Shown piece after piece: positions 1,472 through 52,918 of a DNA stretch of 64,000 bases. The stretch spans positions 23,172,478 to 23,236,477 of the forward strand of contig OZ022581.1 of assembly GCA_963669155.1 (NCBI GenBank). The letters run 5' to 3'. The DNA is from Arbacia lixula (Eukaryota; Echinodermata; Echinoidea; Arbacioida; Arbaciidae). Both the position numbers and the translations under genes were made by a program. The first letter of the stretch is position 1, and each line of letters begins with the position of its first letter. A model generated the notes under the pieces. The model saw only the letters and a list, made by a program, of their open reading frames with translations. It ran no database searches and was not told the DNA's origin.

Positions 1472-2662
1472 TCAAATTACGAGAAGTGCATCGACGGAAG
1501 GCGTGTTGAAATTACCCAGCTCTGACCAGGTAAAGTTACCACCAAGGAGATTCATATAAAAGGCTTTGTGGTCTTTGGCTACGAAAAGCATCAACCATCC
1601 AGAATGTACAGCCAAATGGATAGTACTAAAATAAGTACTGGTTGCATCAAAAAGGGTGCGGATAGATGAGCCATCCATACTAGCTCGAAAGATTGCAATT
1701 TGACCGATAGCAATAGGTTCAGTCCAAATCAAGTACTCACTATCCTCATCCAGCAGCATAAGGTTTGAAGTTGGAAAAGATGTCGGTTCTCTAAAGGTAA
1801 TGATGCTTTCGCTGCCGTTCAAGTTGTCGATGTTTCCTCGCTTAATGCCGACTGTATCGATCCAATAAATCAGTCTGAGTTTACTGGATATCTTGATCCC
1901 ATATAAGCAGTCATCGACATCACAATGCACACTGGTTCTGACAATTTCACGAGCATCATCTTTCAGCGAGTATCCGAATAATGTCTTCAAATCAGGTGAG
2001 CTCACGAACAGCGTTTGAAATTTGTAATCTATCTCCAGTCCCCCTATCCAGAAATTCGGGGAAAAATACCGTATCATTACAAAATCCGGTTCTACTAACT
2101 CCCAAAAAGTAAGCACATTATTATTGACGGTGTAAAATTCGCCACGCACACGGTTATACAACATAAAATGTACATTTGACAAATGACCCTCTCCGTTGTG
2201 AAACAGGACCAATTGAGATTCTACCAAGCCCGTCGTGTTGTAAACGCCAAGACCCCAGGGGGATGCATACATACCAATGCGCCACTGAAGTTTACAGCCT
2301 TTCCCTGAATAACCCAAGGCACATCCACAAACAAATGCACCCTCATTGGACAATTGGTAGCATATCTCATTCTCTCCACATAGTTTCAGCTGGCATGGGT
2401 TAGTTATTATTGTACGATAAACACATGTGATGATTTGACCAGGAGGGTGAGAAGAAGGTGTCCAACGTGAGCATAGTGAGGAGTCATTAGTGGTACCTTG
2501 AAGGTGCCCAATCTGCCCAGCCATCAGCCGATCGTATGGTTTGTACCAGCCATGGCAGAACTCTCCTGAAACTGCGTCCACATAACTTGACCGTCCTCGA
2601 GTAGTGGCGACGAGGAAGAATATCGAAATCGGTAGCCACAACTCCATATTTCCTATTTGCAT
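1472..2662 (-). CDS. Secreted EGF / LDL-receptor class B protein, copy 1 (alpha1)
   Basis: Predicted secreted glycoprotein of 396 residues. Residues 1-24 form a signal peptide (hydrophobic core 7-20). Residues 25-88 contain Cys36, Cys64 and Cys80. Residues 90-123 are an EGF-like domain with six cysteines (90, 95, 101, 112, 114, 123) and the GYSG turn. From about 130 the protein resembles an LDLR class B propeller, clearest at 261-360, with YWID (266-269) and IWTE (312-315), each followed by a blade strand ending in DGS/NGS. N-glycosylation sequons lie at 59, 142, 282 and 376. No transmembrane segment or GPI signal is visible. The start is chosen because signal peptide and start are shared by all intact copies; Met6 is an alternative. 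The reading frame has no intron. Function is unknown; extracellular ligand binding is inferred from the domains. Confidence 0.85.
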   Translation of the reverse strand: MQIGNMELWLPISIFFLVATTRGRSSYVDAVSGEFCHGWYKPYDRLMAGQIGHLQGTTNDSSLCSRWTPSSHPPGQIITCVYRTIITNPCQLKLCGENEICYQLSNEGAFVCGCALGYSGKGCKLQWRIGMYASPWGLGVYNTTGLVESQLVLFHNGEGHLSNVHFMLYNRVRGEFYTVNNNVLTFWELVEPDFVMIRYFSPNFWIGGLEIDYKFQTLFVSSPDLKTLFGYSLKDDAREIVRTSVHCDVDDCLYGIKISSKLRLIYWIDTVGIKRGNIDNLNGSESIITFREPTSFPTSNLMLLDEDSEYLIWTEPIAIGQIAIFRASMDGSSIRTLFDATSTYFSTIHLAVHSGWLMLFVAKDHKAFYMNLLGGNFTWSELGNFNTPSVDALLVI

Positions 2663-2960
2663 GTGTTCATGTAGAAGTATAATAACTCTATACTCTTTAA
2701 GTGTGTTGTTCTCTTGTGTTTGCTACACCGCTCACGGACAAAACGATCGGCCCAAAACCAACTCGAGGTCTAAAAGTTGGGCATGCAGTGGTCCAAATTA
2801 TAAGTGTTATGATGGGTCCTAAAAGTCCCTTCACCATGCAAATACATGCATGATTAAAGGCCTGTTTGGATATTTATATATTCTTTCTGGTATACCTTTT
2901 AGGTTTTAAGGATGGGCAAAGTCGCAAATATCACGTAGACTCCACAAAGCAAAGTGCTCG
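2663..2960 (-). promoter_or_regulatory. Upstream region of copy 1 with two conserved blocks
   Basis: Two blocks recur upstream of every gene copy in the array. The proximal block (2718-2785; about 55-125 bases before the start) contains GACCTCGAGTTGG and a GCCGATCG-type core. The distal block (2917-2960) contains AAGTCGCAAATATCACGTAG. Both are better preserved than the DNA between them, so I infer promoter or enhancer function. A weak TATA-like ATATAGAG-type stretch lies nearer the start, but no transcription start can be fixed from sequence. Confidence 0.45.
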
Positions 2961-4540
2961 TTGATGTCTGAAAAACGGGATATTATAAAGCGAGGCTCCT
3001 TTTAAACAGGGCTCCTTTGGAAAACAGTCCTCGAGAGTGAAAGGACTACCCTGTCCAAATATATCGTGAAGTAAATAAAAAAATAAAGGCTATCACATGT
3101 TTAAAACGTCTTTTATTTTCATTTTAGCGACTGACAATCATATTTGATATTTTTTTATGCGCCTCCTTTTTGATCAATGCGTACATCGTTACAAAAAATG
3201 AATTGTTTCTCTATTAGTACTTTTGTAAAAGAAAAACAAAAGAAAAGAATTGCTTATAATCGCATTGTGTATACAAGGTTTTTTTTTCAATCGTATGCAA
3301 TTTCCATTCACACTACACTTCAAATTTCAAAATTAATTTGAAGTTATATTCTACTAATCTATACCCCATCAATAAGAGTAACGCCAACAAAGTTCATCAG
3401 TTTTGAGCTTTTCATCAAGATGATGTAAATTTCATGATTTCCTACAATGCCAATATAGGGACTTGGTAGGTGACTTAAACGAACTGAACATATTTCATTT
3501 CTGGGTAAATTCAAAATGCAATTTTGAGGAATATTAATCTAACAAGGCTACATGTAACATTATTCAAACCGAATCTACGTTCATGGCCATTCCCAGCTGC
3601 CCAGAGGATTGTGTGTTCATAATTCATGTCTGTGTGTGCGCGCTTTTGATGAATTCGTTTCGTTTCAAATTAAAAAAGGAACAAGTTCATAAATTATTAA
3701 TAATTTTTTTAATCAATACTTCTAAGTAGTTTTCCTCCAAAACTATCTATTCAATCTTAATGAAAATTTCACAGTATCTTTGTCTCATAAACTTATACAA
3801 GATGATGCAATTTCAACGTGATCAGTCAGTCGTGACGTCATCTGGGTGCAATTTTGTGTTTTGAACAAATGTTTTGTGTTTTGAACCATGAACAAATGTT
3901 ATGAACGATATCTTCAATACTAAGCTTCATAAATCAAAGAAACTTGGTACATATCAGCTTCATGGCATTATCTATCAAATGATATCACCGGTGTCCGCGT
4001 GCGTCACGATGCATATCACCCCAATTCGTCGCAGTAACGAATTAAATCATTTTTTTTTCATTTTGATGACGTCATCATGGTGTATTTTTTTTGTCAATAT
4101 CTCACTGTGTACTCCAATTCGAATCCTGGCGTTGGTAGCGTCAAAAAATTACTTCATTCATTTTACAAAGTGATTTTGCCTCCTTCTGATGTTATTTCCA
4201 TTACCATGTCCTCCCATTTTGTATACTCTTCACCATCTTTTTTTTTTCTCTTGCCCCTTTATATTAAAAGACTATTAATTCCATGTTGTTAACACATACA
4301 CCTGTACATGTGACCATTCAGGAAAGACTCTGAAATGTTTGTATAGGTGTGTTATTAGCTTTCTTGAGCGTTGCCTCTGATTTTTAGTGAAGAGATGGTG
4401 TCACCGTGCATTTGACACTTATGTCTTCGCCTGAATTTGCATTGACAGACCACCTCATACATACTTGTACAAAAGTATTTCCCGTTTGATATTACGTCTC
4501 TTTCAATCTAAGTCGGTGATAAAAATTGACAGTTCTACAT
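2961..4540. other. AT-rich alpha-unit spacer
   Basis: I see no gene. The stretch is almost identical to 23260-24845 and partly matches 53225-53990, so it belongs to the duplicated unit. The open frame at 3901-4173 is not preserved intact in the second copy (it shifts after a T-run length change) and is not considered coding. Confidence 0.6.
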
Positions 4541-4599
4541 GACTATGATGAATGTATTGCCCTCAGGCTATTCAGTGTTCATATGTGTCAAAAGTCGAC

Positions 4600-5900
4600 A
4601 GCCAAGTGAAACATTCTCAGATCGAATTACGAAAAGTTCCTCAACTTGCTCTTCTGAATAGGAATGATATCGTCCGCCTTTAACCGTCAGCCGAGAGATT
4701 ACTTTCCTGGGCCCCGTATCACAAAGAGTCGGCTGCTATCTATAGCAACTTTGCGATTGATTGCAAAGTTAGTATCTATCGCATCTCCCTGTATCACAAT
4801 CCATCACTGCTATTCATTGCAAGTCCAAGTCTATACATGATTTTGCAATCAATCTTATAGTTACAATTGATTCACACAAGCTACAATCAATATCAATTGC
4901 AAGTTATGATCGATATCGATCGTAGGTTCTTTGTGATATATATTTACGATTGATATCAATTGTACGATCCATAGATCAATCGTACGATTGATCTATCAAG
5001 TGTACGATTAATCATAGCTTTTTGTGAAACGGGCCCCAGGATATTCAGAAAACAGGCTTCAGGCCCGAAACGCACCAGCCATCCAGCGTATGAAACCACA
5101 TCGATAGTGTAATAACAGTTGCACATTACACTTTTAATAGAGAAGAGCCAATCAAACTAGCTTTGAAGCCAGATTGTCTTTTTAGCGCTGATCACACCAA
5201 GATCTCATTTGCATCATCCACCAACAAACGGTATCGACTTTGGAATAGATGTCATTGCTTAACAACATTATCGATTTAGAAGAAGTCGAGCTTTCCCCGA
5301 TGAATACCAGTTGCATCGATCCAACAAACCAGTCTGTGTGTACTGCATACACCGATCTCACATGGGCCTTCGCGGACATCACCAGGCATACTGACCATGA
5401 TGTTAAGTATTCTTTGATAATATCTTTATAAGGCTGCCTCACATAAAGTCTTCGGAATCTGAATAAATTGCCAGTTCTTCGCCGAGTGTATCCCGAACTG
5501 GCGCAAGCACTGCAGATGGAGTACAGCAATATATTTTGGATAATCATACACCATGCAGGTTTGGTATTGCAGTTGCTCGTCAGATTCTGGGAAGCTGAAA
5601 GTGCGCAGGACCGAGAAGCCTGCGTACACTGAAGTTGACAACTTTCCTCTGAATAACCAAAGGCACCCTTTTTGAACGACTTGTAGCATATGGTGACTTC
5701 CTCCCCGTGGGTTCGGTTGGCATGGTCGATTATTGTACGATAAACGCATGTGGTGATTTGATTAGGAGGGTGAGAAGGAGGTGTCAAACGTGAGCATGGC
5801 GAGGAGTCATTAGTAGTACTTTGAGGGTCTGCAATCTGTCCGGCTGTCAGTCGATCCTACTGTTGGCAACATCCTTGGTAGAACGCCCCGAAACCATGTC
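4600..5900 (-). pseudogene. psi-B1, decayed paralogue of the EGF/LDLR-B gene
   Basis: The minus strand retains the segment before the EGF domain (SHPPNQITTCVYRTII near 5750), EGF cysteine fragments and a propeller fragment (5430-5180) matching the region around YWID, but in different frames. The signal peptide part is missing: the homology jumps from the GEFCHGW region (about 5885) to the upstream flank. The 3' end (4600-4700) still aligns to the C-terminal coding region and is split by a MITE at 4706-5040. This is an older paralogue than the main gene, with many frameshifts. Confidence 0.75.
4706..5040. mobile_element. MITE with CCTGGG terminal inverted repeats, inside psi-B1
   Basis: The ends are inverted repeats of about 23 bases: left CCTGGGCCCCGTATCACAAA, and the right end reads CCTGGGGCCCGTTTCACAAA on the minus strand. 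The interior is made of ATCAATTGTACGATTGAT-like palindromic units. The uninterrupted site is present near 54178-54190, where TTTCCTGG runs directly into ATATTC, so the insertion is directly demonstrated within the window. Confidence 0.85.
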
Positions 5901-5904
5901 TCGT

Positions 5905-6653
5905 GTTATTTGCACGTGTTCAAGTAGAAGGAGTTGAATACTTGTATATTATTGAATTGCGCTCATCTGTTCTGTTTGCTACACCGCTCACTGACGAATC
6001 CATGAGGCTTAAAGGGATAGTCCACCCTAAACTAAGTTGGCTTTAATAAAAGCAGAAATATGAAATAAATGAAATAAATGAAGTGAAGGCTTGATGATAC
6101 GTCAAAAAATAAGAAAGTTACGATTGTTATGTTTCTTGATTTCACAAGATTTTGTAAGGTTAATGAATAAAGTACTTGTGAAAAAGATATGGATTGCCTT
6201 GTTTTAAACATTGGTTTATACTAACGACACACCACAAAAATACTGTCAAACATACACGCACACGCATACACACACAGCTACGCATATATTCATACGGACA
6301 TGCTCACATACAACTCATACATGCATTACAAGCAAGACAGAACTATTACAGTGCATTCCCTATGCTGCAATATACAGGCTACAGAATAATGATACAGGCG
6401 TATGTCGTTTTGAAAATTAGACGGAAAAAATATTTTCGGAAATTCTACGAAGTATCTATCGATAATAAACACAATGACATTGAGGTATTGACATTTTCGT
6501 CTACTTGTTTTTTTACGTATAACCAGCTAAAAACAAATGTACAATAGAATGGTAAAAACAGAGCGCAAGTGGGTGCAAATCCTGAGGCAACCTAATTATT
6601 TACATGACACGACTAAAAAATACTGTATGATTGTTTGTTAACGTTTATCTGTC
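5905..6653. other. Spacer with MITE end and AC-rich microsatellite
   Basis: Begins with the promoter-like block of psi-B1 (about 5966-5995). At 6010-6035 there is one end of an AGGGATAGTCCACCC-type element without its partner end. An AC-rich simple repeat spans about 6240-6310. It is duplicated at 25890-26647. The open frames over the repeat are by-products of its composition. Confidence 0.55.
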
Positions 6654-7377
6654 TAAACACAACAAAGAAAGTAAGTCCCCTCCTAAGGAAAATAGCATAA
6701 CTTATGATCGAAAAGGTTTTGAGCAAAATAATTTGGCAAGATTGTTCCTTAACTTATTGACTAACTTCCGTGTGAGCACACATTAAAGGCAAAAATGTCA
6801 CTTTTCAAAGGTCACAAGGGTAATTCTTCATGCCGTTTTAACAATACATTTTGGCATTTCTTGTGCGATTTTTAAAGTTTTTTAGTCAACCATGACACGA
6901 AAATGGCTTCTTATGCTCACATAACATGTCATCTAACATTTTTGTCAAAATATCCAGAGTTTTATTTTTTTCACCAAAATAAATGGTTTTTAAAAGTTTC
7001 AAACTCAAGAGGGATGAGTATTTTTTAAACGGTGCTCACTCAACCAGAACAATGAATTAAGTGTCGGGATAGATGTTAGTGCATCCAGAGATGGATGATA
7101 AACAATGAAAGGACATAAATTATGCGCCAGAAATGGAATTCATTAAAAATTCATAAGGCAGAATCTCAAAATTACCGTTGTGACTTTTGAAAAGTGACAA
7201 TTTTGCCTTTTATGTGTGCTCACTCATGCATGACCAAGTGGATTAATGCAATTTTCACACGGAAGTGAGTAAATAAGTTAAAAAAAACATTCTTGCAAAA
7301 TTATATTGCTCAAGACCTCTTTGATCAAAAGTTATACAATTTTACTAAGAAGGGACTTACTTTTTTTGTTGTGTTTA
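6654..7377. mobile_element. Foldback element, TAAACACAACA ends (copy 1)
   Basis: Left end TAAACACAACAAAGAAAGTA is repeated inverted at the right end (7377 backwards). The arms stay alignable for about 180-215 bases and the right arm has an extra block of about 45 bases. The centre carries no coding frame. The same family recurs at 8588-8807, 18290-18490, 26648-27370 and in degraded form at 54313-54530. Confidence 0.8.
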
Positions 7378-7387
7378 AATTCCTAAT

Positions 7388-8587
7388 CTAGACACAATGA
7401 ATTATGATTGGTATACCTATGCTTCAACAGCAATGTGCCGGAAAAGTGTATAACATTATCACAGTACTCTGATGATTGTAATTGACTGCGTACATCTTCA
7501 TAAAAATTCATGTCAAAATGTAATATTAAAGTTTGTTTAAACATAGGAGCACTAGAACAGATAAACGTTAAATGTCACAAAAGAGCCACGACTTTGCCGG
7601 AGCTTTCTTTTTTGCGTTGTCCGTCCCAAATCCGTTTACACGATCACTTGAGAGACTTTAGGCAGATTTGCTTCAATATTGGTATGAATTATGTAAAAAC
7701 AAAAAAGAGGGAGGGGGGAGTCAACGCTCATCAAGGACACAGGTCCTATATCAATGAACATGGTAAAAAATGGCAAAAAAATGACCTTTCTTGTCTTGAC
7801 GATGAAAGGAAGACTTACAAAAAGTTGTTTGAGTCACATGAGGAGATTATGTACGACATTAAATAGCTTGCGTTCTTTGAAGAAAAATAATCCCTCAGAA
7901 TATTGGTCAATATTAAGGAAAAGTCAAAGAAAAACTTCTATTAAAGATAAAGTTCCATGAAATGTATTTGTGGATCATTTTAAACTCCTAGGCAATAGGA
8001 AAAAATGCTCCAGTCTCAGAGAGCTCAAGGAATGAATTGCAAATACAGACATTTTCAAAACATTGCTGATTTTGACAATGACATTTTGAATATCTCAATT
8101 ACTGTTGAGGAAACCTTGATGATCATTAAGCAATTGGAGAATATTAAGGCCTCTGGTATTGATTTAATGAGGAATGAATTCCTGAAAAATTGCCCGTCTT
8201 CTGTCATGCACATTATTGTTTCTCGTTTTTAATGCTGGACTAGATAGTGGTGTTTTTTGGTGTTTTCCCTACTGATTGGTGTGTTGGAATTATTATTCCA
8301 ATATTTAAGAATATAAGTTAAAAACCCTGAAAACTATAGAGGTATAACATTGTTAACCTGTTTGTGAAGTTCTTCACCTCAATTCTTAACCATAGAATCA
8401 CAGGATATCTACAAAGAAATTCCACAATTGGTGAGGAACAAGCTGGTTTTCGTTCAGGTTACTCAACAACTGATCATGTATTTACACTAAAATGTATAAC
8501 TGATATCTATCTACAGCAAAAAAAAAAAAAAACGTTTATGTTGTCCGTTCATTGATTACAAAAAGCTTTTGATTTTATCGATTTGAT
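7388..8587 (+). pseudogene. LINE-A reverse transcriptase fragment
   Basis: Frames with several shifts read as the N-terminal half of a non-LTR reverse transcriptase. They include a linker with KKNNPSEYWSILRKSQ, then KQLENIKASGIDLMRNEFL, then EEQAGFRSGYSTTDHVFTL near 8430-8500, and remains of the first catalytic-Asp motif (KAFDFID) at about 8560-8580. The palm motif with the DD pair is absent because sequence is cut at about 8587 by a half foldback element. Clade not assigned. Confidence 0.8.
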
Positions 8588-8807
8588 CGAAAATAGACAA
8601 TTACCCTTGTGACTTTTGAAAAGTAACAATTTTGGCTTTAATGTGTGTTCACTCATGCATGACTAGTGGATTACTTCCATTTTCACACGGAAGTTAGTCA
8701 ATAAGTGAAGGTACAATCCTGCCAATTTATGTTGCTCAAAACCTCTTCGATATGTTTTGCTAGTTATGTTATTTTGCGTAGGGGGACTTACCTTTGTGCT
8801 GTGTTTA
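8588..8807. mobile_element. Half of a TAAACACAACA foldback element inside LINE-A
   Basis: Matches only the right arm of the element at 6654-7377, ending in the GGACTTAC...TGTGTTTA terminus at 8807. It separates the LINE-A RT fragment from its C-terminal part. Bases 8808-9180, after it, contain no recognisable coding sequence. Confidence 0.7.
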
Positions 8808-9184
8808 CGTGTTAATAAATGTACTCCCGACTGCATGGTTTATGATGAAACTGGTCGATGTGTATTAAATTTTAAACCGTGTCAAATGCAGAATGGTTGG
8901 GTTTTGGTTAGAGATCATTAAATGGAAACTAGCCAAACACTCAGTTTTACTTTGCCATCTTTCCAAACGCTTGAGCCACAAATGAAGGCTTGAATTCAGC
9001 ATCAATTTGGTTGCGTCATGTTCAAGATAAATCATATTTAAAACAATGCTGGATTTGCAAATTTGTGGATTTAAATGTGAATGGGTACTGAACGCATTGA
9101 AAATTGACACTACCTGATATCTATAAACATGATTGGAAAGCTTCAATATGAAGTAATCGTTTATGTATCAATTATAGAATGTTT

Positions 9185-9790
9185 GCAGGCCTATGGGAAG
9201 TAGAAAAGTATCGATTGTTTCCTAATAGTAAAGCTGCTACTACGTTGTGTAGATTCAGATGTTGATCACACAGTTTACCTAGAAATAATACGTAATAGGT
9301 TTAACTCAGGCATATTGCAGGATGATATATGCACACTCTGTTAGTCAGATACATGGTGATGAATTCCATTATTTATTTGGTTGTCCTTTCTTTTTGGATG
9401 AGAGAAAGTTAAATTTACATAAATCAGTATTACGTGGCCGTACACCTAGCTCGATAGAAGTGGATAAACTTTTTAAGGTGCGAGACTCTTGCCAGTTGAA
9501 GAAACTTGTGAATTTTATTAACATAATCATGAACCATTTTAGACATGAACTGAAAAGAAATGGTTTTGTTGATGTTACTCTTCAATGTTATGAACATTTA
9601 GTTACACGTAGTGGTAGAATTGTAAGAAATCCTGTGGGCCTAGTGTTGTAAATACTGAAGAAGTTATGTACTCTATTTCCTTTATGTATTTGTATGTATT
9701 CGTGTTATTGTATATCATTGTAAATATGTTGAACTCTCATACCCTGAGAGGGGGTCTATGGAGTGAATAAAATATTGCGTTATCTTTTCA
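9185..9790 (+). pseudogene. LINE-A C-terminal fragment and 3' tail
   Basis: The plus-strand frame 9322-9651 contains GDEFHYLFGCPFFLDERK, a motif typical of the C-terminal region of LINE polyproteins. Upstream, 9185-9320 gives further pieces (RNRFNSG) in shifted frames. A short 3' UTR follows, ending near AATAAA-like sequence at 9770. Confidence 0.7.
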
Positions 9791-10189
9791 CAATAAATAC
9801 AAATACAGTTGACGCAATTTCAACCAAACATGGTACCAAATTTGTACACTGCTTAGAGGTAAAACGATTATATTTTTGTCGACAAATTGCTCCAAATTGA
9901 TATTTTTCACAACAAATACTGATCAATCAAACATTGTACAAAGATGTTTCCTTACATTGCCATAGACAACGTAATTTGAGGTAAAATTCCTAAAAAGCTG
10001 ATATCGTTATTTCTTTCCCCACATATTTTAAAGAGCAGAAAGTTCTACACAAGGTGTATCCATTTTGGGCATGTACAGTTTATTCATTGTATCAGTTGAG
10101 AATATTTTCCAGATGTGTACATAGACAATCACTCGATCTGAATGTTCCTATGTACTACTACTAACTTTAACCGGCAAGCGGAGCCACAT
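9791..10189. other. Spacer with one tandem-monomer fragment
   Basis: Bases 9800-9930 resemble one monomer of the AACCAAACATGGTAC repeat found in long arrays at 34660, 43800 and 49130. The remainder holds no gene. It is duplicated at 28936-29279 with a deletion of about 30 bases. Confidence 0.5.
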
Positions 10190-10645
10190 CACCCCTGTCT
10201 TGAAAAGTCTTCATTGGTTGCCCCGAGGGAACGCCTTGTCTTTAAAATACTTCTTTTAGTCTTTCATATTATCAACGGAACTTCCCCCAGCTACAAATAA
10301 ATCTTTAATTCACAACTACCAACCATCACGAACCTTAAGATCCTCCACATCCCGTCTTTTGCAAGTTCCGGTTTCAAAGAGATCATGGGGAGAACGGGTC
10401 TTTGCCCATGCAGGGCCAACCCTATGGAATTTTCCTCCACAGAGTTGGAAAACCCTGACATCAGTGACCACCTTCAAGGGCAACCTAAAGACATACCTGT
10501 ATAATGGTGCTTTTTGAAGTACAAGTTCATACCTGTATTGTATTTTTCTCTCTCTCTTTAATTTGCTCTGAAGCGCCTTGAGCATCTGATTAAGATGGAA
10601 AGTGCGCTATATAAATTCTATGTATTATTATTATTATTAATACTA
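10190..10645 (+). pseudogene. LINE-B (CR1/L2-like) 3' end
   Basis: The last part of an RT polyprotein in broken frames, followed by a short 3' UTR with AGCGCCTTGAGCA and GCGCTATATAAAT and a TATTATT tail at 10622-10645, the usual structure of CR1/L2-like 3' ends. The copy at 29280-29775 keeps a cleaner frame. Confidence 0.8.
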
Positions 10646-10725
10646 GGTTGTTCTTTAAAAAAAGTAATATTTTGTGAATTGAATCAATTTTTGCCAAGTG
10701 AAATCGGCATTTCGCATATATACAC

Positions 10726-10912
10726 TCAAAGAGGGTTACAGTTCGATATTCCGAAGGTTCGTTTATTCGGAAGATTCGTTATTCCGACGGTTCGTAATTC
10801 CGAAAAACGTAAATTGCCTATTACCTCTATGCTCGTTAGTCCGAGAACGAAAAAGGGCTCGTTAATCCGAGCATTTGTCGCGTAACGTTCGGAATAACGA
10901 GTGCTTCCCTCA
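10726..10912. repeat. GTTCGTTATTCCGAAG-type short repeat element
   Basis: Repeated and locally palindromic units built on TTCCGAA/TTCGGAA and GTTCGT(T/A)A, with CTCAAAGAGGG near the left end and CCTCAAAGAGAAGG near the right end. Non-coding; open frames across it exist on both strands because the repeat lacks stops. Confidence 0.6.
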
Positions 10913-11094
10913 AAGAGAAGGTCCTTCGCATTGTGATTACTCAAGTGGTATGGATTTGTATTCTCTTGCACAAAATAAATGGTATATATATGCAAATTGA
11001 TGCCATTGCTGTTGTGAGATCATGCATCTTTAAAAAGAAAAAGTTACAAAATATTGCATATTTATGCTTTATGTCACCTTCTACACGAATAACA

Positions 11095-11420
11095 AAATAA
11101 TAATTCGAGTTTCTGAAATTTATTGCTTGTCCATCTCTGTTTTTCTTCGAATAATCATCACATTGTAAGATCTGTTCAATTATTGATAGGCCCATCATCT
11201 GTTTTCCCGACACCTCCCGACACCCATTCAGCATGCTGCTTATCAAAGCATGTAGGTGATGTTGATCGAGGCTGGATCAGGCTTTCTGCAACATGGGCTG
11301 GAATTTTTACAGAAAGATATCATCCCTCACTTTCTTGTTGGCTTTCTGCTTGCTGCCATCCCAAAGGTTTTCCATCGCGTTGCAGTTGCTCAATGTCATT
11401 TCCTCAAGAAACTGTTCAGT
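11095..11420 (-). pseudogene. Tc1-like transposase C-terminal relic (beta1 3' flank)
   Basis: The minus strand reads CNAMENLWDGSKQKA at about 11390-11345, then, after a frameshift, KAWSSLDQHHL and ISSMLNGCREV. This fits the end of a Tc1/mariner DDE transposase, where NPIENLW carries the third catalytic acidic residue and W..ID precedes the C-terminal helix. Nothing of the N-terminal or earlier catalytic parts is present. The same relic recurs in four other flanks. Confidence 0.65.
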
Positions 11421-11505
11421 AAGTTTTAAAAGGAATTCGGGCGCATTTTGCAGAGGCCATGAGCTCATCCAGATCAATATCACATATGCGCTTTACAGGG
11501 AATAT

Positions 11506-11787
11506 ACTGTACTGGGAAGACAAAAAAAGACCTTCAAAAGGTGATCGGGAGCAATCTTTTTGCCAATGATCTTTATAAAGGTATTGTCCATTTTTGAAAC
11601 TTGCTGAACGTCATTTACCCATTTGGAGTATTTCTGACTTAATCACTAATTACTCCAAATGTGGATCTTTTGACGGCAAATTACTTTCGGTATGTTTCTA
11701 AAATGGACATTACATGAATTTATGCCCATTGACAAGAAGATTGCTCCCGATTACCTTTTGAAGGCGTTTGTGTCTTCCCAGTACAGT
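11506..11787. mobile_element. Foldback MITE, ACTGTACTGGGAAGACA ends (copy 1)
   Basis: The left end ACTGTACTGGGAAGACA is mirrored at the right end (TGTCTTCCCAGTACAGT, ending near 11787). The arms stay similar for about 100 bases, including the blocks TCGGGAGCAATCTT and TTGTCCATTTT. The centre is AATTACTCCAAATG. No coding frame. Confidence 0.75.
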
Positions 11788-12522
11788 CAGCAGTGACTGA
11801 CAGTAGAGTATATAGCCTTTAATCAAAGTAGATGGTGGGCCTATCAATGACTACTGATATCTGTATGAAGATGAATTGCTGCTCTATGGTAGTGATGAGT
11901 GTTGCTTGCGTAAAAAAAGTCTGATGTGACACATACAAAGTAAGTAGTAGAACAAAGAGTACTATAAATAGTGTTTTGAAAGTTTAGAAACACGAGTGTT
12001 TTTTGAGCTTTACGTGTAGAAGTTGACAAAAATGTTAAAACTGCAAGATTTCCTTCACACCTATTCTCATAAAATGCAAGTTTCACACCAACAGTGCCAT
12101 AAATTGGCGCACACCTCTTTATTGACTCGTAACCTAACTAGCGTTCGCTCTTCAATTTTACTCAGAACATGTTGCAATACTCGATTTGTATCTGCATCTG
12201 CTGTGGTAACCAAAATATCCATTACCTTTGATTCTACAGGTGTACTTATTCTGTATTTTTTTTCAATGTGCATAAAAAAAGTATTTAAATAGATGAAATC
12301 ATTAACATTTAATCCATATTTAATTCATTTTTACTACACAATCCTAATAAAAACAAGTCCAAATTATGGTTTGGGGGTTGAACCGTGTTTAAATAAATGA
12401 TTCAATCAACCATTCGATCGACAGTTCTACATAACTTTGATACTAAAGTTATCATCAGGCATGTCATGGCCTGTCGTGCTCAAATATGTTAAATATTAAC
12501 CATGAAGTAAAACTTTAAGGGA
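11788..12522. other. 3' flank of the beta1 gene
   Basis: Non-coding. It matches the 3' flanks of the other copies (for example 37140-37750), including the TTTACGTGTA...GTGACA segment and the GTTCTACATAACTTTGAT block just before the stop. No feature beyond unit homology is visible. Confidence 0.55.
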
Positions 12523-12908
12523 TCAAATTACGAGAAGTGCGTCTATGTACGGCTAGTTAAAACCACCCATATTTAACCAGGTACAGTTACCATCCAGGAG
12601 ATTCATATAGTTGGTGTTGTGGTCTCTGGTCAATCATCATCCATCCAGAGTATGCAACCAAATTGATATGACTAGAATAAGTACTGGTTCTAATTTAAAG
12701 GGTGCGTATAGATAAGCCATCCAAAGTGGCTCTGAACACTGAAATTTGATCGATAGGAAAAGGTTCAGTCCAAATCAAGTACTCACTATCCTCATCCAGC
12801 AGCATAAGGTTTGAAGTGGGAAAAGATGTCGGTTCTCTAAAGTTAATGCTGCTTTCGCTGCCGTTCAAGTTGTCGATGTATCCTCGCTTAATGCCGACTG
12901 TATCAATC

Positions 12909-13760
12909 TGTAGCAGCTATACATATCATATGTACGATTTTTTTGTCGTAGATGGCGCTAATATGTTGTTAGTATATTGGTTGCTAGAGGTGTCACCAGC
13001 GTCCGCAGCAATTTCCGCGGCCTAATCTGCATAAATGACAATTTAGGCGGGCGATTATCGTCCGCTAATTGGACGCTGTTGGAGCCGAAAGGATTCAGCT
13101 GATTGCCACTGAATCCTTCGAGCTTGTATTTAAAGAAAATCTCAGCTCTTCTCCTACCGACGACCGCCGAACTCACGCATACTATTCCTGTAGTTCCACG
13201 CTACGCGTGTTCTGCCTTTACACGACGATTGCCTTTAGTGGAAAATAATTCCCAGCTCGACAGTAAACGGCGTGCTCTGCTCCATTTTTGTACTTCAAAT
13301 TAATTTTCAATAAGAAACATAGTTTCTCTCCAGAGCACGTTTGAGCCATTTTCGACAGCTAGGCCCGGCATAGCCTAACAGACATTCCACCGTTCTTCCC
13401 TGTCGGCACCGGCGATCGTCGTCATCCACGGAGCGGCACGACCCACCGCTGCTCATGCTTCGTCGTCACCGGCGATCGTCGTCATCCAAGGAGTGGCACG
13501 ACCCACCGCTGCTCATGCTTCGTCGTCACCGGCGATCATCGTCATACACGGAGTGGCACGACTTGCCGCTGCTAGTTCATCGTCATCATCACAAGTATCG
13601 ATCCTTACGAACATTACCAGCAAGCTTCTGTGCATTTTTCCACTAGAATAAAAAAAGTTTATTTGATTGTTTGAATATAAACACCAGCCAAAAATCACTT
13701 CAAATCTCCACTTCATAGAAATAAGCACACTGTTACCCTCAAACGCATGAAATAACTAAA
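12909..13760. mobile_element. LTR-like insertion in the beta1 gene
   Basis: The insert interrupts the gene between ACTGTATCAATC and AATCCAATAT. AATC occurs on both sides (12905-12908, 13761-13764) as a probable 4-base target duplication. It starts TGTAGCAGC, has a TATTTAAAG promoter-like site (about 13127), AATAAA near 13649 and no ORF, so a solo LTR is my best guess. It does not end in CA, so another element type is possible. Confidence 0.5.
13399..13580. repeat. 60-bp tandem repeat, three copies
   Basis: Within the LTR-like insert a 60-base unit containing CACCGGCGATCGTCGTCATC and GGAGTGGCACGAC repeats three times at exact 60-base spacing, with a few substitutions. GC-rich against an AT-rich background. 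The open frames across it are by-products. Confidence 0.85.
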
Positions 13761-14537
13761 AATCCAATATATCAGTCTGGGTTTACTGGATATCTTAATC
13801 CCATATAAGCATTCATTGTCAACACAAGGCACACTGGTTCTGACGTTTTTACGACCAGCATCTTTCAGCGGGTATTCTTTGATTAACTGTCAGGCCGGCT
13901 CATGAACAGTATCTGAAATGTGTAATCTATCGCCAGTCCCACAGAATGGGCATTGGGATCCTGGAAGGTGATAATGAAACGGTATCTGTTAACTCCTTAG
14001 AGTAGTAGTACCCATTATTATCTTTGATCGCATAAATGACGCCACGCACACGATCACACACCATATCAGTTGCCCTCCAAAGTTCAATTGGCGTCTTGAG
14101 ATTCTACCAAGCCCGTCGTGTTGAAAACGCGAAGACCCCAGGGGCTGCATACATATCAATGCGCCACTGAAGGTGACAGCCTTTCCCTGAATACCCCAAG
14201 GCACATCCACAAACAAATGCACCCTCATTGGACAATTGGTTGCATATCTCATTCTCTCCACATAGTTTCAGCTGGTATGTGTTAGTTATTATTGTACGAT
14301 ACACACATGCGATGATTTGACCAGGAGGGTGAGAAGGTGTCCAACGCGTGCATTGTAAGGAATCATTAGTGGTACTCTGAAGGTGTGCAATCTGCCCAGC
14401 CATCAGTCGAACATACGGCACCAACCTTGGCAGAACTTTTCCGAAACCACGTCCCCATAACTGCATCGTCCTCGAGTAGCAGCGATGAGGAAAAATAATA
14501 GAATCTGTTGCCACAGCTCCATGTTTCCTATCTGCAT

Positions 14538-21204: not shown

Positions 21205-21785
21205 TGTAATGAATGGTGTTTGAAAGTTCAGAAACTTGAATGACTCTCTTGCTTTACGTGTACAAGGTGACACAAATCACAGAATTGCAAGATTTTCTTC
21301 ACACCTTTGCTCAGAAAATGCAAGCTTTTACACCAACAGTGCCATCAATTGGTGTACACCCCTTTATTTACTCGTAACATGAATAGCGTCGGCCTTTTAA
21401 TTTTTACCCGAAACATATTGCAATAATCGGTGTGTATTTGCATGTCTTCAGGTAACCAAACTATCTACCATGTTTTTATTCTACAATTGTACTTATTCTG
21501 TAAGCTATTAACACATATTTTCGATGTGCATGACTTAAATCGATATACTTTTTTAAACATTTCATCCAAATGTAATGTATGTTTATCAGGAATTATTTTA
21601 TGATTATGTACATTGCATCTTTTCCACACAATCCCTATGAAGATCAGTCCTTGTAATGAGTTTGGGTTTAATAAATAAATGTAACAGTTCTATGTGACTT
21701 TGATGCTAACGTAATCCTCAAAAATTTCATGGGCTGTCGTGCTCAAATGTGTTGAATATCAACCATGAAGTAAATATCTAAGGCA
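21205..21785. other. 3' flank of the alpha2 gene
   Basis: Non-coding 3' flank, collinear with 37143-37750 and 51180-51730. The last 215 bases also match 1256-1471. A cluster of A/T-rich ATAAAATAAT (minus) near 21590-21605 could serve polyadenylation; no canonical AATAAA is seen on the minus strand in the first 200 bases. Confidence 0.45.
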
Positions 21786-27370: not shown

Positions 27371-27389
27371 AATTTTTGTGTTTAAAATT

Positions 27390-31669: not shown

Positions 31670-32462
31670 TCAAATTACGAGAAGTGCGTCTATGTACGGC
31701 TAGTTAAAACCACCCATATTTAACCAGGTACAGTTACCATCCAGGAGATTCATATAGTTGGTGTTGTGGTCTCTGGTCAATCATCACCCATCCAGAGTAT
31801 GCAACCAAATTGATATGACTAGAATAAGTACTGGTTCTAATTTAAAGGGTGCGTATAGATAAGCCATCCAAAGTGGCTCTGAACACTGAAATTTGATCGA
31901 TAGGAAAAGGTTCAGTCCAAATCAAGTACTCACTATCCTCATCCAGCAGCATAAGGTTTGAAGTGGGAAAAGATATCGGTTCTCTAAAGTTAATGATGCT
32001 TTCGCTGCCGTACAAGTTGTCGACGTTTCCTCGCTTAATGCCGACTGTATCAATCTGTAGCAGCTATACATTTCATATGTACGATTTTTTTTTGTCGTAG
32101 ATGGCGCTAATATGTTGTTAGTATATTGCTTGTCTATCGCCATGGTTGCTAGAGGTGTCACCAGCGTCCGCAGCAATTTCCGCGGCCTAATCTGCATAAA
32201 TGACAATTTGGGCGGGCGATTATCGTCCGCTAATTGGATGCTGTTGGAGCCGAGAGGATTCAGCGGATTGCCACTGAATCCCTCGAGCCTGTATTTAAAG
32301 AAAATCTGTGTGCAATCTTCCCAGCCATCAGTCGAACATACGGCACCAATCTTGGCAGAACTTTTCCGAAACCACGTCCCCATAACTGCATCGTCCTCGG
32401 GTAGCAGCGACGAGCAAAAATAATAGAATCTGTTGCCACAGCTCCATGTTTCCTATCTGCAT
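31670..32462 (-). pseudogene. Truncated EGF/LDLR-B gene fused to LTR-like insert (beta2)
   Basis: The C-terminal coding region (31670-32055) is followed by 252 bases of the LTR-like insert (32056-32307) and then directly by the segment after the signal peptide (32308-32462). The EGF domain and first half of the propeller are deleted, together with the rest of the insert. The 4-base frameshift after GWC is present as in beta1. The open frame at 31922-32383 runs across this junction in non-native frames and is not a plausible gene. Confidence 0.85.
32056..32307. mobile_element. Remnant of the LTR-like insert (beta2)
   Basis: Matches the first 240 bases of 12909-13760 from TGTAGCAGC to TATTTAAAGAAAATCT. 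It has 16 bases (TTGTCTATCGCCATGG region, about 32130) that the beta1 copy lacks. Confidence 0.75.
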
Positions 32463-37750: not shown

Positions 37751-38941
37751 TCAAAGTACGAGAAGTGCATCGATTCGAGGCTCGTTGAAATCACCCAGCT
37801 TTGACCAGGTAGAGTTACAACCCAGGAGATTCATATAAAAGGCTTTGTGGTCTTTGGTTACGAAAAGCATCAACCATCCAGAATGTACAGCCAAATTGAT
37901 AGTACTAAAATAAGTACTGGTTGCATCAAAAAGGGTGCGGATAGATGAGCCATCCATACTAGCTCGAAAGATTGCAATTTTACCGATAGCAATAGGTTCA
38001 GTCCAAATCAAGTACTCACTATCATCATCCAGCAGCATAAGGTTTGAAGTTGGAAAAGATGTCGGTTCTCTAAAGGTAATGATGCTTTCGCTGCCGTTCA
38101 AGTTGTCGATGTTTCCTCGCTTAATGCCAACGGTATCAATCCAATATATCAGTCTGAGTTTACTGGCTATCTTGATCCCATATAAGCATTCATCGACATC
38201 ACAAGGCACACTGGTTGTGACACTTTCACGACCATTTTCTATCAGCGAGTATCCGAATAATGTCTTCAAATAAGGTAAGCTCATGAACAGCGTTTGAAAT
38301 TTGTAATCTATCGCCACTCCCCCTGTCGGGAACTTCGGTGTAAAATACCTTATCATTTTACAATCCGGTTCTCCTAACTCCCAATAACCAAGCACATTAT
38401 CATTGACAGTGTAAAATTCGCCACGCACACGATTATACAACATAAAATATAAATTTGACAAAAAAATTCTTCCGATGTAAAACTGAACCAAATGAGATTC
38501 TACTAAGCCCTTCATGTTGTAAACGCGAAGACCGCTGGGGGCTGCATACACACCAATGCGCCACTGAAGGTGACATCCTTTCCCTGAATAACCCAAAGCA
38601 CATCCACAAACAAATGCACCCTCATCGGACAATTGGTAGCATATCTCATTCTCTCCACATAGTTTCAGCTGGCATTTGTTAGTTATTATTGTACGATAAA
38701 CGCATGTGATGATTTGACCAGGAGGGTGAGAAGAAGGTGTCCAACGTGAGCATTGTGAGGAGTCATTGAAGTCACCTGGAAGGTGTGCAATCTGCCCAGC
38801 TATCAGCCGATCGTATGGTTTGTACCAGCCATGGCAGAACTCTCCTGAAACTGCGTCATCATAACTTGACCGTCCCCGAGTAGTGGCGACGAGGAAAAAT
38901 ATGAGAATTGGTTGCCACAGCTCCATATTTCCTATTTGCAT
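37751..38941 (-). CDS. Secreted EGF / LDL-receptor class B protein, copy 3 (beta3)
   Basis: 396 residues from the conserved MQIGNMELW start. The frame is open for 23 more codons upstream (to 39010), but that extension would bury the signal peptide and has no counterpart in the other intact copies, so I use 38941. Signal peptide, EGF-like domain 90-123 with six Cys, and the YWID and IWTE blades are all present. It is the only beta-type copy without the 4-base frameshift. It differs most from the alpha copies around residues 130-245 (for example YSLIENGRESVTTS). Upstream sequence is beta type (GTGGAGCATGCATTG), so either an intact ancestral beta gene or one repaired by gene conversion. Confidence 0.85.
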   Translation of the reverse strand: MQIGNMELWQPILIFFLVATTRGRSSYDDAVSGEFCHGWYKPYDRLIAGQIAHLPGDFNDSSQCSRWTPSSHPPGQIITCVYRTIITNKCQLKLCGENEICYQLSDEGAFVCGCALGYSGKGCHLQWRIGVYAAPSGLRVYNMKGLVESHLVQFYIGRIFLSNLYFMLYNRVRGEFYTVNDNVLGYWELGEPDCKMIRYFTPKFPTGGVAIDYKFQTLFMSLPYLKTLFGYSLIENGRESVTTSVPCDVDECLYGIKIASKLRLIYWIDTVGIKRGNIDNLNGSESIITFREPTSFPTSNLMLLDDDSEYLIWTEPIAIGKIAIFRASMDGSSIRTLFDATSTYFSTINLAVHSGWLMLFVTKDHKAFYMNLLGCNSTWSKLGDFNEPRIDALLVL

Positions 38942-41448: not shown

Positions 41449-42100
41449 GAGCATATTTTAAACTGAAACTAGGGGCGCTTATTACATATTGTGATATTAT
41501 ATCCCTTCTATGAATATTTATGAGTATTCTGGGAACGTGATTGGTCAATTGATGATCGCAGACTACAAAATAATTTTACTATATCTGCCTCAGCTCCGGA
41601 TATTTTTTACTATTTTTTCATTGGGAGGACTGCGCATGCTCTATTTACTATTTTCTTCCTTGGGACTACTGCGCATGCTCTCTACCTGAGCAAGCGTAAA
41701 TTAGTGCGCGCATGAATGCAGTGCGTGGCGTGTTGCGTATTTACCTGGGATGGACAGATATCGAGACAGAGGGGGAAAAGGCGACATACAACCACATGGT
41801 GTTACCGAAAGTTTTACTATTTTCTAAATAGTATTTATTAGTATTTTTGTTCTGTTATTGTTTTACACAAGGGATATAAAACAAATATACCAAGCATTGA
41901 GTTCGAATGTATAGTGAAAATTATGCATCTTCGGAGGGACTGGCATAAGTTACTATTTTTTCTTCGGGGGCTTCGCCCCTCGGAAAAAATAGTTCTATGC
42001 AACTCCCTCCTCAGATCGATAATTTCCACTATACAATCTCACAGCTTGGTATATTTGTATAATATGTAATAAACGCCCCTAGTTTCAGTTTAAAATACGC
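41449..42100. mobile_element. TIR element with nested palindromic core (inverted copy)
   Basis: Terminal inverted repeats of about 42 bases: GAGCATATTTTAAACTGAAA ... at 41449 and its reverse complement ending at about 42107, with ACTAGGGGCG inside. The core 41495-42050 is an inverted copy of the element repeated at 42301 and 42744, with a perfect hairpin around GGGGGCTTCGCCCC (41965-41985). Confidence 0.75.
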
Positions 42101-42147
42101 TCGTTTTACGCAATCATGTTTTTGTGTAAATTGTTCAGTCATTCATT

Positions 42148-42172
42148 CTTGATAAAGGTCTATGACCGAAAA
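42148..42172 (+). ncRNA. Hammerhead-like hairpin core, degenerate
   Basis: TTGATAAAGGTCTATGACCG followed by AAA resembles the CUGANGA-stem II-GAAA core found in Penelope-like element ends. The first motif is degenerate and an extra A precedes the stem, so self-cleavage is doubtful. Confidence 0.25.
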
Positions 42173-42235
42173 TTCGAATAATTTTTCTTCTCCGGCGTTT
42201 CATTTAATTTGTTTGTCTTCACCTATATATATATT

Positions 42236-43228
42236 ATACAAATATACCAAGCTGTGAGATTGTATAGTATACAAATATACCGAGCTGTGAGATTGTATAG
42301 TGGAAATTATCTATCTGAGGAGGGAGTGGCATAGAACTATTTTTTCCGAGGGGCGAAGCCCCCGAGGAAAAAATAGTAACTTATGCCAGTCCCTCCGAAG
42401 ATGGATAATTTTCACTATACTTTCGAACTCAATGCTTGGTATATTTGTTTTATATCCCTTTTGTAAAACAATAACAGAACAAAAATTGTTGCCTTTTTTT
42501 CTCTGTCTCGATATCGGTTCATCCCAGGTAAATGCGCAACACGTCGCGCACTGCATTCTCTGTGCACTAATTTACGCGCGCTCAGGTAGAGAGAATGCGC
42601 AGTAGTCCCAAGGAAGAAAATAGTAAATAGAGCATGCGCAGTCCTCCCCAGGAAAAAATAGTGAAAAATATCCGGAGCTCTTCGACCATCAATTGACCAA
42701 TCACGTTCCTAGAATACTCATGAATATTCATAGAAGGGATATAATGGAAATTATCTATCTGAGGAGGGAGTGGCATAGAACTATTTTTTCCGAGGGGCGA
42801 AGCCCCCGAGGAAAAAATAGTAACTTATGCCACTCCCTCCGAAGATGAATAATTTTCACTATACTTTCGAACTCAATGCTTGGTATATTTGTTTTATATC
42901 CCTTTTGTAAAACAATAACTAATAAATGATATTTAGAAAATAGTAAAACTGTCGGTAACACCATGTGGTTGTATGTCGCCTTTTTTTTTCTCTGTCTCGA
43001 TATCGGTTCATCCCAGGTAAATGCGCAACACACCGCGCACTGCATTCATGCGCGCACTAATTTACGCGCGCTCAGGTAGAGAGCATGCGCAGTAGTCCCA
43101 AGGAAGAAAATAGTAAATAGAGCATGCGCAGTCCTCCCCAGGAAAAAATAGTGAAAAATATCCGGAGCTCTTCGACCATCAATTGACCAATCACGTTCCT
43201 AGAATACTCCTGAATATTCATAGAAGGG

Positions 43229-43232
<4 letters not shown>
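42236..43232. repeat. Head-to-tail dimer of a palindromic element
   Basis: Two direct copies, about 42301-42743 and 42744-43232. Each begins TGGAAATTATCTATCTGAGG, has the hairpin GAGGGGCGAAGCCCCCGAGG and ends ATTCATAGAAGGGATATA. A 33-36 base leader with ATACAAATATACC(A/G)AGCTGTG occurs twice before the first copy. The second copy has about 45 extra bases that the first lacks. Confidence 0.8.

Positions 43233-43283
<51 letters not shown>
43233..43283. repeat. AT dinucleotide microsatellite
   Basis: About 25 AT units between the dimer and the next element. A second AT run lies at 43760-43782. Confidence 0.9.
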
Positions 43284-45411: not shown

Positions 45412-46536
45412 CAAATTACGAGAAGTGCATCGACGGAAGTCGTGTTGAAATTACCCAGCTCTGACCAGGTAAAGTTACCACCCAGGAGATTCATATAAAA
45501 GGCTTTGTGGTCTTTGGTTACGAAAAGCATCAACCATCCAGAATGTGCAGCCAAATGGATAGAACGAAAATAAGTACTATTTGCATCATAAAGGGTACTT
45601 TGTACCCAATTTTACCGATAGCAGTAGGTTCAGTCCAAAGTACTCACTATCCTCATCTAGCAACATAAGGTTTGAAGTTGGAAAAGATTTCGGTTCTCTG
45701 AATGTAATGATGCTTTCGCTGTCGTTCAAGTTGTCGATGTTTCCTCGCTTAATGCCGACTGTATCAATCCAATAAATCCGTCTGAGCTTACTGGCTCTCC
45801 TGAACCCATGTAAGCACTCATCGACTTCATAAGGCACACTGGTTGTGACGTTTTAACGACTATCATCTTTCAGCGGGTATTCTTTGATTAACTGTCAGGC
45901 CGGCTCATGAACAGCATCTGAAATGTGTAATCTATCGCCAGTCCCACAAAATGGGGATTGGGATCCTGGAAGGTGATATCCATAGGGCGGATTTTAGTGA
46001 AACAGTATCTGTTAACTCCCTAGAGTAGTAGTACACATTATTATCTTTGATCGCATAAATTACGCCACGCACGCCTGCCCTCCAAAGTTCAAATTGGTGA
46101 CTTGACATTCTACCAAGCCCGTCGCGTTGAAAACGCGAAGACCCCAGGGGGCTGCATACATACCAATGCGCCACTGAAGGTGAATAACCCAAGGCACATC
46201 CACAAACAAATGCACCCTCATTGGACAATTGGTAGCATATCTCATTCTCTCCACATAGTTTCAGCTGGCATGGGTTAGTTATTATTTTACGATAAAAGCA
46301 TGTGATGATTTGACCAGGAGGGTGAGAAGAAGGTGTCCAACGCGTGCATTGTATAAAGGAGTCATTAGTGGTACCTTGAAAGTGTGCAATCTGCCCAGCC
46401 ATCAGTCGAACATACGGCACCAACCTTGGCAGAACTTTTCCGAAACCACGTCCCCATAACTGCATCGTCCTCGGGTAGCAGTGACGAGCAAAAATAATAG
46501 AATCTGTTGCCACAGCTCCATGTTTCCTATCTGCAT
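45412..46536 (-). pseudogene. Broken EGF/LDLR-B gene (beta4)
   Basis: Start (46536) and stop (45412) are both recognisable. Defects: the 4-base frameshift after GWC; a 14-base deletion that removes the sixth EGF cysteine and shifts frame (near 46184); loss of coding sequence around 45845-45940; and a deletion near 45595 in the IAIFRASMDGS blade. Open frames 45586-45837 and 45932-46513 are remnants. The flanking triple repeat and psi-B are in the usual places. Confidence 0.85.
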
Positions 46537-49110: not shown

Positions 49111-49129
49111 AAAGTTCACATGTTGCACA

Positions 49130-51130: not shown

Positions 51131-51730
51131 TATTCCGTACGCTCAGTTCACTTTTACACATTAAAGAGTGAATAATGAATGGTGTTTGAAAGTTCATAAA
51201 CATGAATGATTCTCTTGCTTTACGTGTAGAAGGTGACACAAATTACAGATTTGCAAGATTTTTTTCACACCTTTTCTCATAAAATGCAAGATTTTACACC
51301 GACAGTGCCGAAAATTGGCGTGCACCCCTTTATTTACTCGTAACATGAAAATCGTCGGCGTTTTTTTATTTGTACCCAAGACTTGCAACAGTCGGTGTGT
51401 ACCGGCATCTCTTCAGGTAACCAAACTATCCATCATCTTTTGATTCTACAAGTGTACTTATTATGTAAGCTATTAACACATATTTCATGTGCATGAGACG
51501 TATTTAATCTTGTAAAATATTTCATTCAAATGTAATGTAATTTTATAATTATGTACATTCCATCTTTACCACACAACCCCTATGAAAACCAGTCCTTGTA
51601 ATGAGTTTGGGTTTAATCAATCAATTAAACAGTTCTACGTGACTTTCACATTCAAGTAATCTTCAAACATTTCATCGGCTTTCGTGCTCAAATGTATTAA
51701 ATATCAACCATGAAGTGAATATCTAAGGCA
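51131..51730. other. 3' flank of the alpha3 gene, with empty CATATGGG site
   Basis: Non-coding. At 51165-51180 CATTAAAGAGTG is joined directly to AATAATGAATGG, the target sequence that is interrupted at 20993 and 36900. Confidence 0.6.
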
Positions 51731-52918
51731 TCAAATTACGAGAAGTGCATCGACGGAAGTCGTGTTGAAATTACCCAGCTCTGACCAGGTGAAGTTACCA
51801 CCCAGGAGATTCATATAAAAGGCTGTTTGGTCTTTGGTTACGAAAAGCATCAACCATCCAGAATGTACAGCCAAATTGATAGAACTAAAATAAGTACTGG
51901 TTGCATCAAAAAGGGTGCCTATAGTTGAGCCATCCATACCAGCTCGAAATATTGCAATGTTACCTAGAGGAATAGGTTCAGTCCAAATCAAGTACTCACT
52001 ATCCTCATCCAGCAGCATAAGGTTTGAAGTTGGAAAAGATGTCGGTTCTCTGAATGTAATGATGCTTTCGCTGCCGGTCAAGTTGTCGATGTTTCCTCGC
52101 TTAATGCCGACGGTATCAATCCAATAAATCAGTCTGAGTTTACTGGCTATCTTGATCCCATATAAGCAGTCATCGACATCACAAGGCACACTGGTTCTGA
52201 CAATTTCACGACCATCATCTTTCAGTGGGTATGCAGATAATACCTTCAAAGAAGGTAAGCTGATGAACAGTGTTTGAAATCTGTAATCTATCGCCAGTCC
52301 CTCTATCGGGAAAGTTGATTTAACATGGTTTCTCATTGAAACCGGTTCTGCTAACTCCCAATAACGAAGCACATTATAATTGACCGAGTAAATTTCGCCA
52401 AGCACACGATCATACAACATAAAATATACATTTGACAACACCTCTCCTTTGATGTAAAACTTGCCCAAATGAGATTCCACAAAGCCCGTCATGTTGAAAA
52501 CGCGAAGACCCAAGGAGGCTGAATATATACCAATGCGCCACTGAAGTAGACAGCCTTCCCCTGAATAACCCAAAGCACATCCACAAACAAATGCACCCTC
52601 ATTGGATGTCTGGTGGCATATCTCATTCTCACCGCATAGTTTCAGCTGGCATGGGTTAGTTATTATTGTACGATAAAAGCATGTGATGATTTGACCAGGA
52701 GGGTGAGAAGAAGGTGTCCAAAGTGGGCACTGTAAGGAGTCATTAGTTGTACCTTGAGGGTGTGCAATCTGCCCAGCCATCAGTCGGTTCAGTGGTTTGT
52801 ACCAGCCATGGCAGAACTCTTCTGAAACTGCGTCCACATGACTTGACCGTCCTCGAGTAGTGGCGACAAGGAAAAATAATACAATCGGTAGCCACAGCTC
52901 CATATTTCCTATTTGCAT
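51731..52918 (-). CDS. Secreted EGF / LDL-receptor class B protein, copy 4 (alpha3)
   Basis: 395 residues, full architecture: signal peptide 1-24, EGF-like domain with six cysteines at 90-123, YWID and IWTE blades in the C-terminal half. It is the most divergent intact copy. By eye, roughly 17 of the first 130 residues, about 50 of residues 131-245 and about 13 of the last 151 differ from copy 1. There is a one-residue deletion near residue 200. The NGS sequon at 282 becomes LTGS. The frame is intact and intronless and the upstream blocks are conserved. Confidence 0.85.
   Translation of the reverse strand: MQIGNMELWLPIVLFFLVATTRGRSSHVDAVSEEFCHGWYKPLNRLMAGQIAHPQGTTNDSLQCPLWTPSSHPPGQIITCFYRTIITNPCQLKLCGENEICHQTSNEGAFVCGCALGYSGEGCLLQWRIGIYSASLGLRVFNMTGFVESHLGKFYIKGEVLSNVYFMLYDRVLGEIYSVNYNVLRYWELAEPVSMRNHVKSTFPIEGLAIDYRFQTLFISLPSLKVLSAYPLKDDGREIVRTSVPCDVDDCLYGIKIASKLRLIYWIDTVGIKRGNIDNLTGSESIITFREPTSFPTSNLMLLDEDSEYLIWTEPIPLGNIAIFRAGMDGSTIGTLFDATSTYFSSINLAVHSGWLMLFVTKDQTAFYMNLLGGNFTWSELGNFNTTSVDALLVI

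Follow-up and report, generated by a model that had tools for sequence, protein, structure and literature searches.

The window, by which we mean the whole 64,000-nucleotide stretch of Arbacia lixula DNA that was analyzed, sits on contig C6 of a 607-Mb assembly and carries four intact and six broken copies of one gene family, all on the minus strand. The intact genes, A1 (positions 1472-2662), A2 (21786-22976), A3 (37751-38941) and A4 (51731-52918), are uninterrupted open reading frames (ORFs) of 396, 396, 396 and 395 amino acids, and the last three are 94%, 84% and 80% identical to A1 in amino acid sequence. For A3 the ORF finder had opened the frame at a GTG at 39010; we took the gene as given here. 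Three broken copies, B1 (12526-14537), B2 (31673-32462) and B3 (45414-46536), share one lesion, a frame change with a stop close to residue 44, and because it is present in all three we rejected the B copies as working genes. In addition, B1 has about 850 bp of non-family sequence at 12908-13760, B2 has a large internal deletion, and B3 ends in 180 nt of A-type sequence. The other three are decayed: C1 (5596-5883) retains residues 35-137 only, C2 (25571-25874) is a duplicate of C1, and D (56174-56905) covers residues 10-199 in pieces. A seventh broken copy lies outside the window at C6:23162750-23163768, 8.7-9.7 kb leftward, which brings the C6 array to seven broken and four intact copies; a search with A4 gave no match in the 9.7 kb beyond that copy or in the 9.5 kb to the right of the window. 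A sequence-only reading of this DNA had described four intact and at least four broken copies on one strand with shared flanks. The intact frames, the strand and the flanks are borne out, as is the presence of broken copies, whose count in the window is six.

Two blocks of the window, assigned no strand, form a duplication of about 11-12 kb with a spacing of about 20.3 kb: unit 1 (1254-13142) holds A1, C1 and the 3' part of B1, and unit 2 (21568-32307) holds A2, C2 and the 3' part of B2. Pieces of the two units are 94-97.5% identical, three collinear pieces differ at 188 of 8320 noncoding sites, and the duplication is recent. The units are otherwise collinear, but one segment of 1.1 kb (94% identical) at 27409-28519 in unit 2 runs in the opposite orientation to its counterpart at 7397-8528 in unit 1. 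The earlier suggestion of an array that is both expanding and decaying is supported. We also found that A and B units have exchanged sequence, since flanks and coding parts show different histories. The upstream flank of A3 differs by 6-7% from B3 and B1, by 9% from B2 and by 22% from A1, and its codons 1-44 differ by 8% from A1 and by 24-25% from the B copies, making A3 a chimera of an A-type coding region and a B-type 5' flank. Likewise, the final 180 nt of B3 differ by 5-11% from the A copies and by 23% from B1 and B2. The exchange placed the intact A3 coding region behind a different upstream region.

Other features of the window lie between or beside the copies. At 57070-58618 there are two repeats of about 650 bp, each with inverted matches (78-84%) both to itself and to the other, which also occur in L037 at 3476-3767; they are perhaps a foldback-type element. 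Between A3 and B3, at 41497-43234, lie more repeats of about 500 bp (86-88%), some inverted and some direct. On the plus strand, 62035-64000 is the start of a spliced gene with a leader exon at 62035; a second exon, whose frame stays open from 63106 or earlier up to the edge of the window, encodes a somatomedin B domain (PF01033; score 23.9 bits, cut-off 23.1).

A dispersed family with single-frame coding regions

A single search of the genome with A4 returned 56 matches, and 28 stretches around these matches (L009-L036) were taken out for reading frames. At least one uninterrupted homologous frame was present in 25 of the 28 stretches (26 frames in total, 388-470 aa) and none in L015, L018 and L026. 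Since four members lie in the window and these 26 lie on ten other contigs, the family has at least 30 intact members, a lower bound for a set collected with one A4 query and by looking for single frames. They are found on contigs C1, C5, C6, C8, C10, C14, C15, C18, C20, C22 and C62, and the earlier description of an array is thus not supported as worded, the family being more than local. Ten intact members form an array at C22:17456626-17539256 (17.46-17.54 Mb; L027-L036), where nine copies share a strand and the tenth lies on the opposite one, several being nearly identical. In a tree of the family, the arrays are recent local radiations and long old branches separate the groups; some of the long branches join, and those joins may be false. 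Across 20 members, the most distant of which is 22% identical to A4, twelve alignment columns never vary. A scan of prokaryote genome contigs with A4, which reaches close relatives only, found no relatives, and a literature search by titles and abstract starts, with most subscription journals outside its coverage, found no description of the family.

Members on different contigs bear on how copies dispersed. The C18/C20 pair (L020/L021) has about 2.5 kb in common, reaching some 600 nt past the CDS on both sides, and because the match extends into both flanks, retroposition is not supported for this pair, the one dispersed pair similar enough for a judgement. In the C1a/C62 pair the match barely leaves the CDS. 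A retro-origin of the family founder is possible.

Each of the 30 intact members has its coding region in a single frame, with a leader that is hydrophobic by hydropathy in every case, a Cys motif, an EGF region, a propeller region and a stop. The Cys motif reads CxGWYxP...ITC, and across members it takes the form CxG[WLF] near the N-terminus with TC later; the EGF cysteines are incomplete in two members, L024 being without part of them and L022 without one. A family start at Met6 is probable, since members outside the C14/C22 group mostly open at the counterpart of MELW; this would give 390-391 residues (391 for A1) and correct the previously noted length of 396. Of the 30 members, 28 end no more than 9 residues from the A1 end column, the exceptions having tails of 45 (L022) and 26 residues (L033) past the A1 end. 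These features support a small stand-alone protein with one EGF and one propeller, predicted to be secreted, rather than one exon of a larger receptor. That the genes are intronless agrees with the uninterrupted coding region of 30/30 members (collected by searching for such frames), and an additional 5' non-coding exon is possible.

We checked for membrane segments with a simple 19-residue hydropathy measure (KD). The best stretch downstream of the leader scored at most 1.59 in 28 of the 30 members; the first-listed copy of L025 reached 1.69 inside its propeller, and L022 (contig C14) is the sole member with a clearly hydrophobic tail (residues 437-455 of its 469-aa frame, KD 1.86). Apart from L022, hydropathy in the 30 members revealed no transmembrane segment with cytoplasmic tail of the LDLR/LRP type. 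L022 is perhaps a membrane-anchored version or the result of a lost stop codon, and solubility therefore need not hold for every member. In a manual register, strands B-C-D of blade 1 follow the EGF, five full blades come next, and the C-terminus supplies strand A of blade 1; because this last strand completes blade 1, the protein is probably one closed six-bladed propeller. An AF2 model from the four near-identical window sequences was unusable (pLDDT 27.8) because the alignment was too shallow.

A profile of 20 of the 30 members aligned with the solved structures of LRP4 (8s9p; E 4.2×10−39) and LRP6 (8ctg; E about 1×10−20), in each case over the EGF plus the propeller, which places the family in the EGF-YWTD (LDLR class B) superfamily. 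A single-sequence phmmer search with A4 reached LRP4 at E 0.00095. The Pfam LDLR-B model (PF00058) gave 14.2, 12.4 and 12.3 bits for three window proteins, under the curated cut-off of 21, with the fourth unlisted; because its best E among the 20 members was only 0.043 (three reached E ≤0.1), a standard annotation would probably overlook the propeller family. Some members also match EGF-type Pfam models, PF00008 being hit by 10 of 20 at E 0.1. The eight Pfam families that the 20 members matched at this threshold include no LDLa repeat and no NIDO or G2F domain. The nidogen propeller (1npe) was a weak profile match (E 0.0014), far behind LRP4. Nidogen, a laminin binder, is secreted and has a YWTD propeller beside an EGF, as predicted for the family, but it is a large multi-domain matrix protein.

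The family has the same blade motifs and the same EGF-before-propeller order as the LRP4 and LRP6 modules, and its module is predicted to descend from an LRP4/5/6-like EGF-propeller pair. LRP4 is a large receptor, and EGF-YWTD modules are normally parts of large receptors. In contrast to LRP4/5/6, the family has one module, no LDLa match, one coding exon and many copies, and it is without a TM-like stretch after the leader except for the one tail (L022) and the one blade (L025). According to PMC10089208, LRP5/6 have four propellers with EGFs plus three LDLa domains.

Amino acid change across the propeller

In the window array, nonsynonymous differences were clustered in all six pairs of A genes (scan P-value ≤0.0003), the best 120-codon window beginning at residue 88-123, and synonymous differences were clustered in none of the six (P-value 0.39-0.84). 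In A1-A2, the most recent pair, the early part of the propeller has changed faster than noncoding sequence: 21 of 360 nt were changed in residues 126-245, compared to 188 of 8320 noncoding sites (P-value 1.5×10−4; 0.00175 after a scan of all same-size windows), and the rest of the CDS changed at the noncoding rate (17/828). The ratio of nonsynonymous to synonymous differences between residues 126-245 and the remainder of this pair was not significantly different (P-value 0.087). Omega in 126-245, a region picked after the data had been seen, was 1.76 with a local silent rate (P-value 0.034 against 1). Model M2a, which includes a site class with omega above 1, was better than M1a in A (P-value 1.8×10−9), C8 (0.0046) and C22 (0.019); it assumes that the silent rate is uniform and gene conversion absent, and many of the top-scoring A sites depend on codons with two or three changes. 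Pairs of B pseudogenes, taken as a neutral control, gave 32 nonsynonymous to 15 synonymous differences (omega 0.60) and 6 to 0, counts that are too small to serve that purpose. The 126-245 hotspot was rejected as a family-wide rule because C8 and C22 are without it.

We divided the propeller by hand, on A1, into top loops (B-C and D-A), bottom loops (A-B and C-D) and strands, with the loop boundaries set after the A sites were known. Variable amino acid positions were more frequent in top than in bottom loops in all five groups examined, and clearly so in three: 41 and 33% in A (Fisher P-value 0.37), 48 and 12% in C8 (8×10−6), 32 and 18% in C22 (0.09), 13 and 2% in C5 (0.015), and 63 and 23% in C18-C20 (2×10−6). 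With local silent rates, omega was higher in the top loops than in the rest in six of six groups (combined P-value 4×10−6): 1.38 and 0.73 in A, 1.38 and 1.15 in C8, 1.64 and 0.59 in C5, 1.79 and 0.47 in C18-C20, 1.27 and 0.41 in C1-C62, and 0.84 and 0.66 in C22, the difference being significant alone in C18-C20 and C1-C62. Outside the top loops omega was thus 0.41-0.73 in five of the six groups, C8 being the exception. The signal for omega above 1 in the top loops is weak: it exceeded 1 in five of six groups (C22 was below), in none significantly alone, with a combined P-value of 0.026. Bottom-loop pN/pS was as high as top-loop pN/pS in two of the six A pairs.

Stronger P-values for the top loops had come from a shared silent rate, which assumes one silent rate per gene, and we gave these less weight once pairwise counts had been made and silent rates taken locally. 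C8 violates that assumption (top/rest silent ratio 2.24, P-value 0.03). With the shared rate, omega in the top loops of C22 was 0.68, below 1 (P-value 0.04), and the highest omega of this group was in the N-terminal part. The N-terminal part of the C18-C20 pair is strongly conserved (omega 0.10), and its top loops differ at 63% of positions.

PMC10089208 reports that the tops of LRP6 propellers bind Wnt antagonists and Wnt, and it names D98, R141, G158, N185, A201 and T240 of LRP6 as LRP5/6 high-bone-mass positions on the top surface. We placed these positions with a constant numbering offset of 17 and located them by hand in the profile alignment, where all six fall in or directly beside the D-A and B-C loops. 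The fast face of the family would therefore be the LRP6 ligand face.

Candidate roles of the family

The explanation we prefer, with a confidence that stops a little short of even, is that the family encodes secreted recognition proteins with a diversifying ligand face, used most commonly in innate immunity. Coding structure, family size (as a lower bound), homology, recombination and the face bias of change come directly from the sequences; secretion, fold, ligand binding and the immune role are predicted from them. The products would be soluble secreted binders consisting of a signal peptide, the Cys motif, a single EGF and a complete YWTD-type propeller of six blades, closed by the C-terminal strand. 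New genes would arise by DNA-level duplication, unequal exchange within arrays and dispersal, and many of them would die. Because the B-C and D-A loops of one propeller face change fastest, the targets would most likely be a moving set, and the likely role would be humoral or surface recognition in innate immunity. Among expanded echinoderm immune families, SpTransformer (Sp185/333) and the sea urchin TLR genes, which are single-exon, offer a comparison of working mode only. SpTransformer genes, like those here, are a multigene family of small clustered genes; they have two exons and repeats, whereas the family here has one coding exon. Immune recognition is our first guess and conspecific recognition our second; we infer both the step from face bias to binding and that from binding to immunity.

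Conspecific targets would call for the same kind of binding family, serving in gamete recognition, as a waterborne cue or in allorecognition, with sexual or social conflict rather than pathogens driving the diversity. Rapid change on one face, arrays and copy exchange fit this equally well, and excerpts of studies on the crown-of-thorns starfish suggest secreted proteins as conspecific cues (PMC10448888; PMC9759900). The available text of PMC9759900, however, makes no mention of lipoprotein receptor, EGF, LDL, tandem or intron, and in our sequences no copy is linked to gonad, gamete or body surface; we consider such a role unlikely, though worth keeping in view.

It is also rather improbable that this is a weakly constrained, decaying family in which most copies are passengers and the fast loops vary simply for lack of constraint. 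The absence of a single group with top-loop omega significantly above 1 under a local silent rate, the excess of broken over intact copies on C6 and the omega of 1.15 outside the top loops of C8 are all consistent with decay. Such a family would nevertheless have to account for an A1-A2 region above the noncoding rate at residues 126-245, for 30 open frames with constraint outside the top loops in five of six groups, and for the 12 invariant columns.

We give little credence to the proposal that the proteins are decoys or antagonists for a developmental ligand (Wnt, DKK, sclerostin or BMP-type), with a free LRP5/6-like propeller taking up the ligand. Such ligands evolve slowly, and a fast-changing face on 30 diverging copies would therefore be unexpected. 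The closest solved relatives are nonetheless LRP4 and LRP6, and PMC10089208 has LRP6 propeller tops binding ligands of this kind. That each frame is just one large exon of a spliced, multi-domain receptor is very improbable and was rejected: EGF-YWTD modules do usually occur in large receptors (LRP5/6 in PMC10089208) and a 5' non-coding exon is possible, but leader and stop share a frame in every one of the 30 intact members, and nine of the ten minus-strand ORFs of at least 120 aa in the window are family copies or their remains.

Within our preferred reading of secreted recognition proteins, we more tentatively propose that the propeller acts as a variable-loop scaffold, a germline repertoire, within one genome, of at least 30 secreted single-propeller proteins whose top-face loops would form the diversifying recognition surface and whose arrays would reshuffle coding and upstream parts. 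If true, this would add a new class, derived from an LRP module, to the humoral recognition molecules of echinoderms. A genome-wide, stand-alone, probably secreted, single-coding-exon EGF-YWTD family with a fast ligand face would represent an unrecognised echinoderm recognition repertoire, and its members would make up a natural propeller set, with one scaffold and many top faces.
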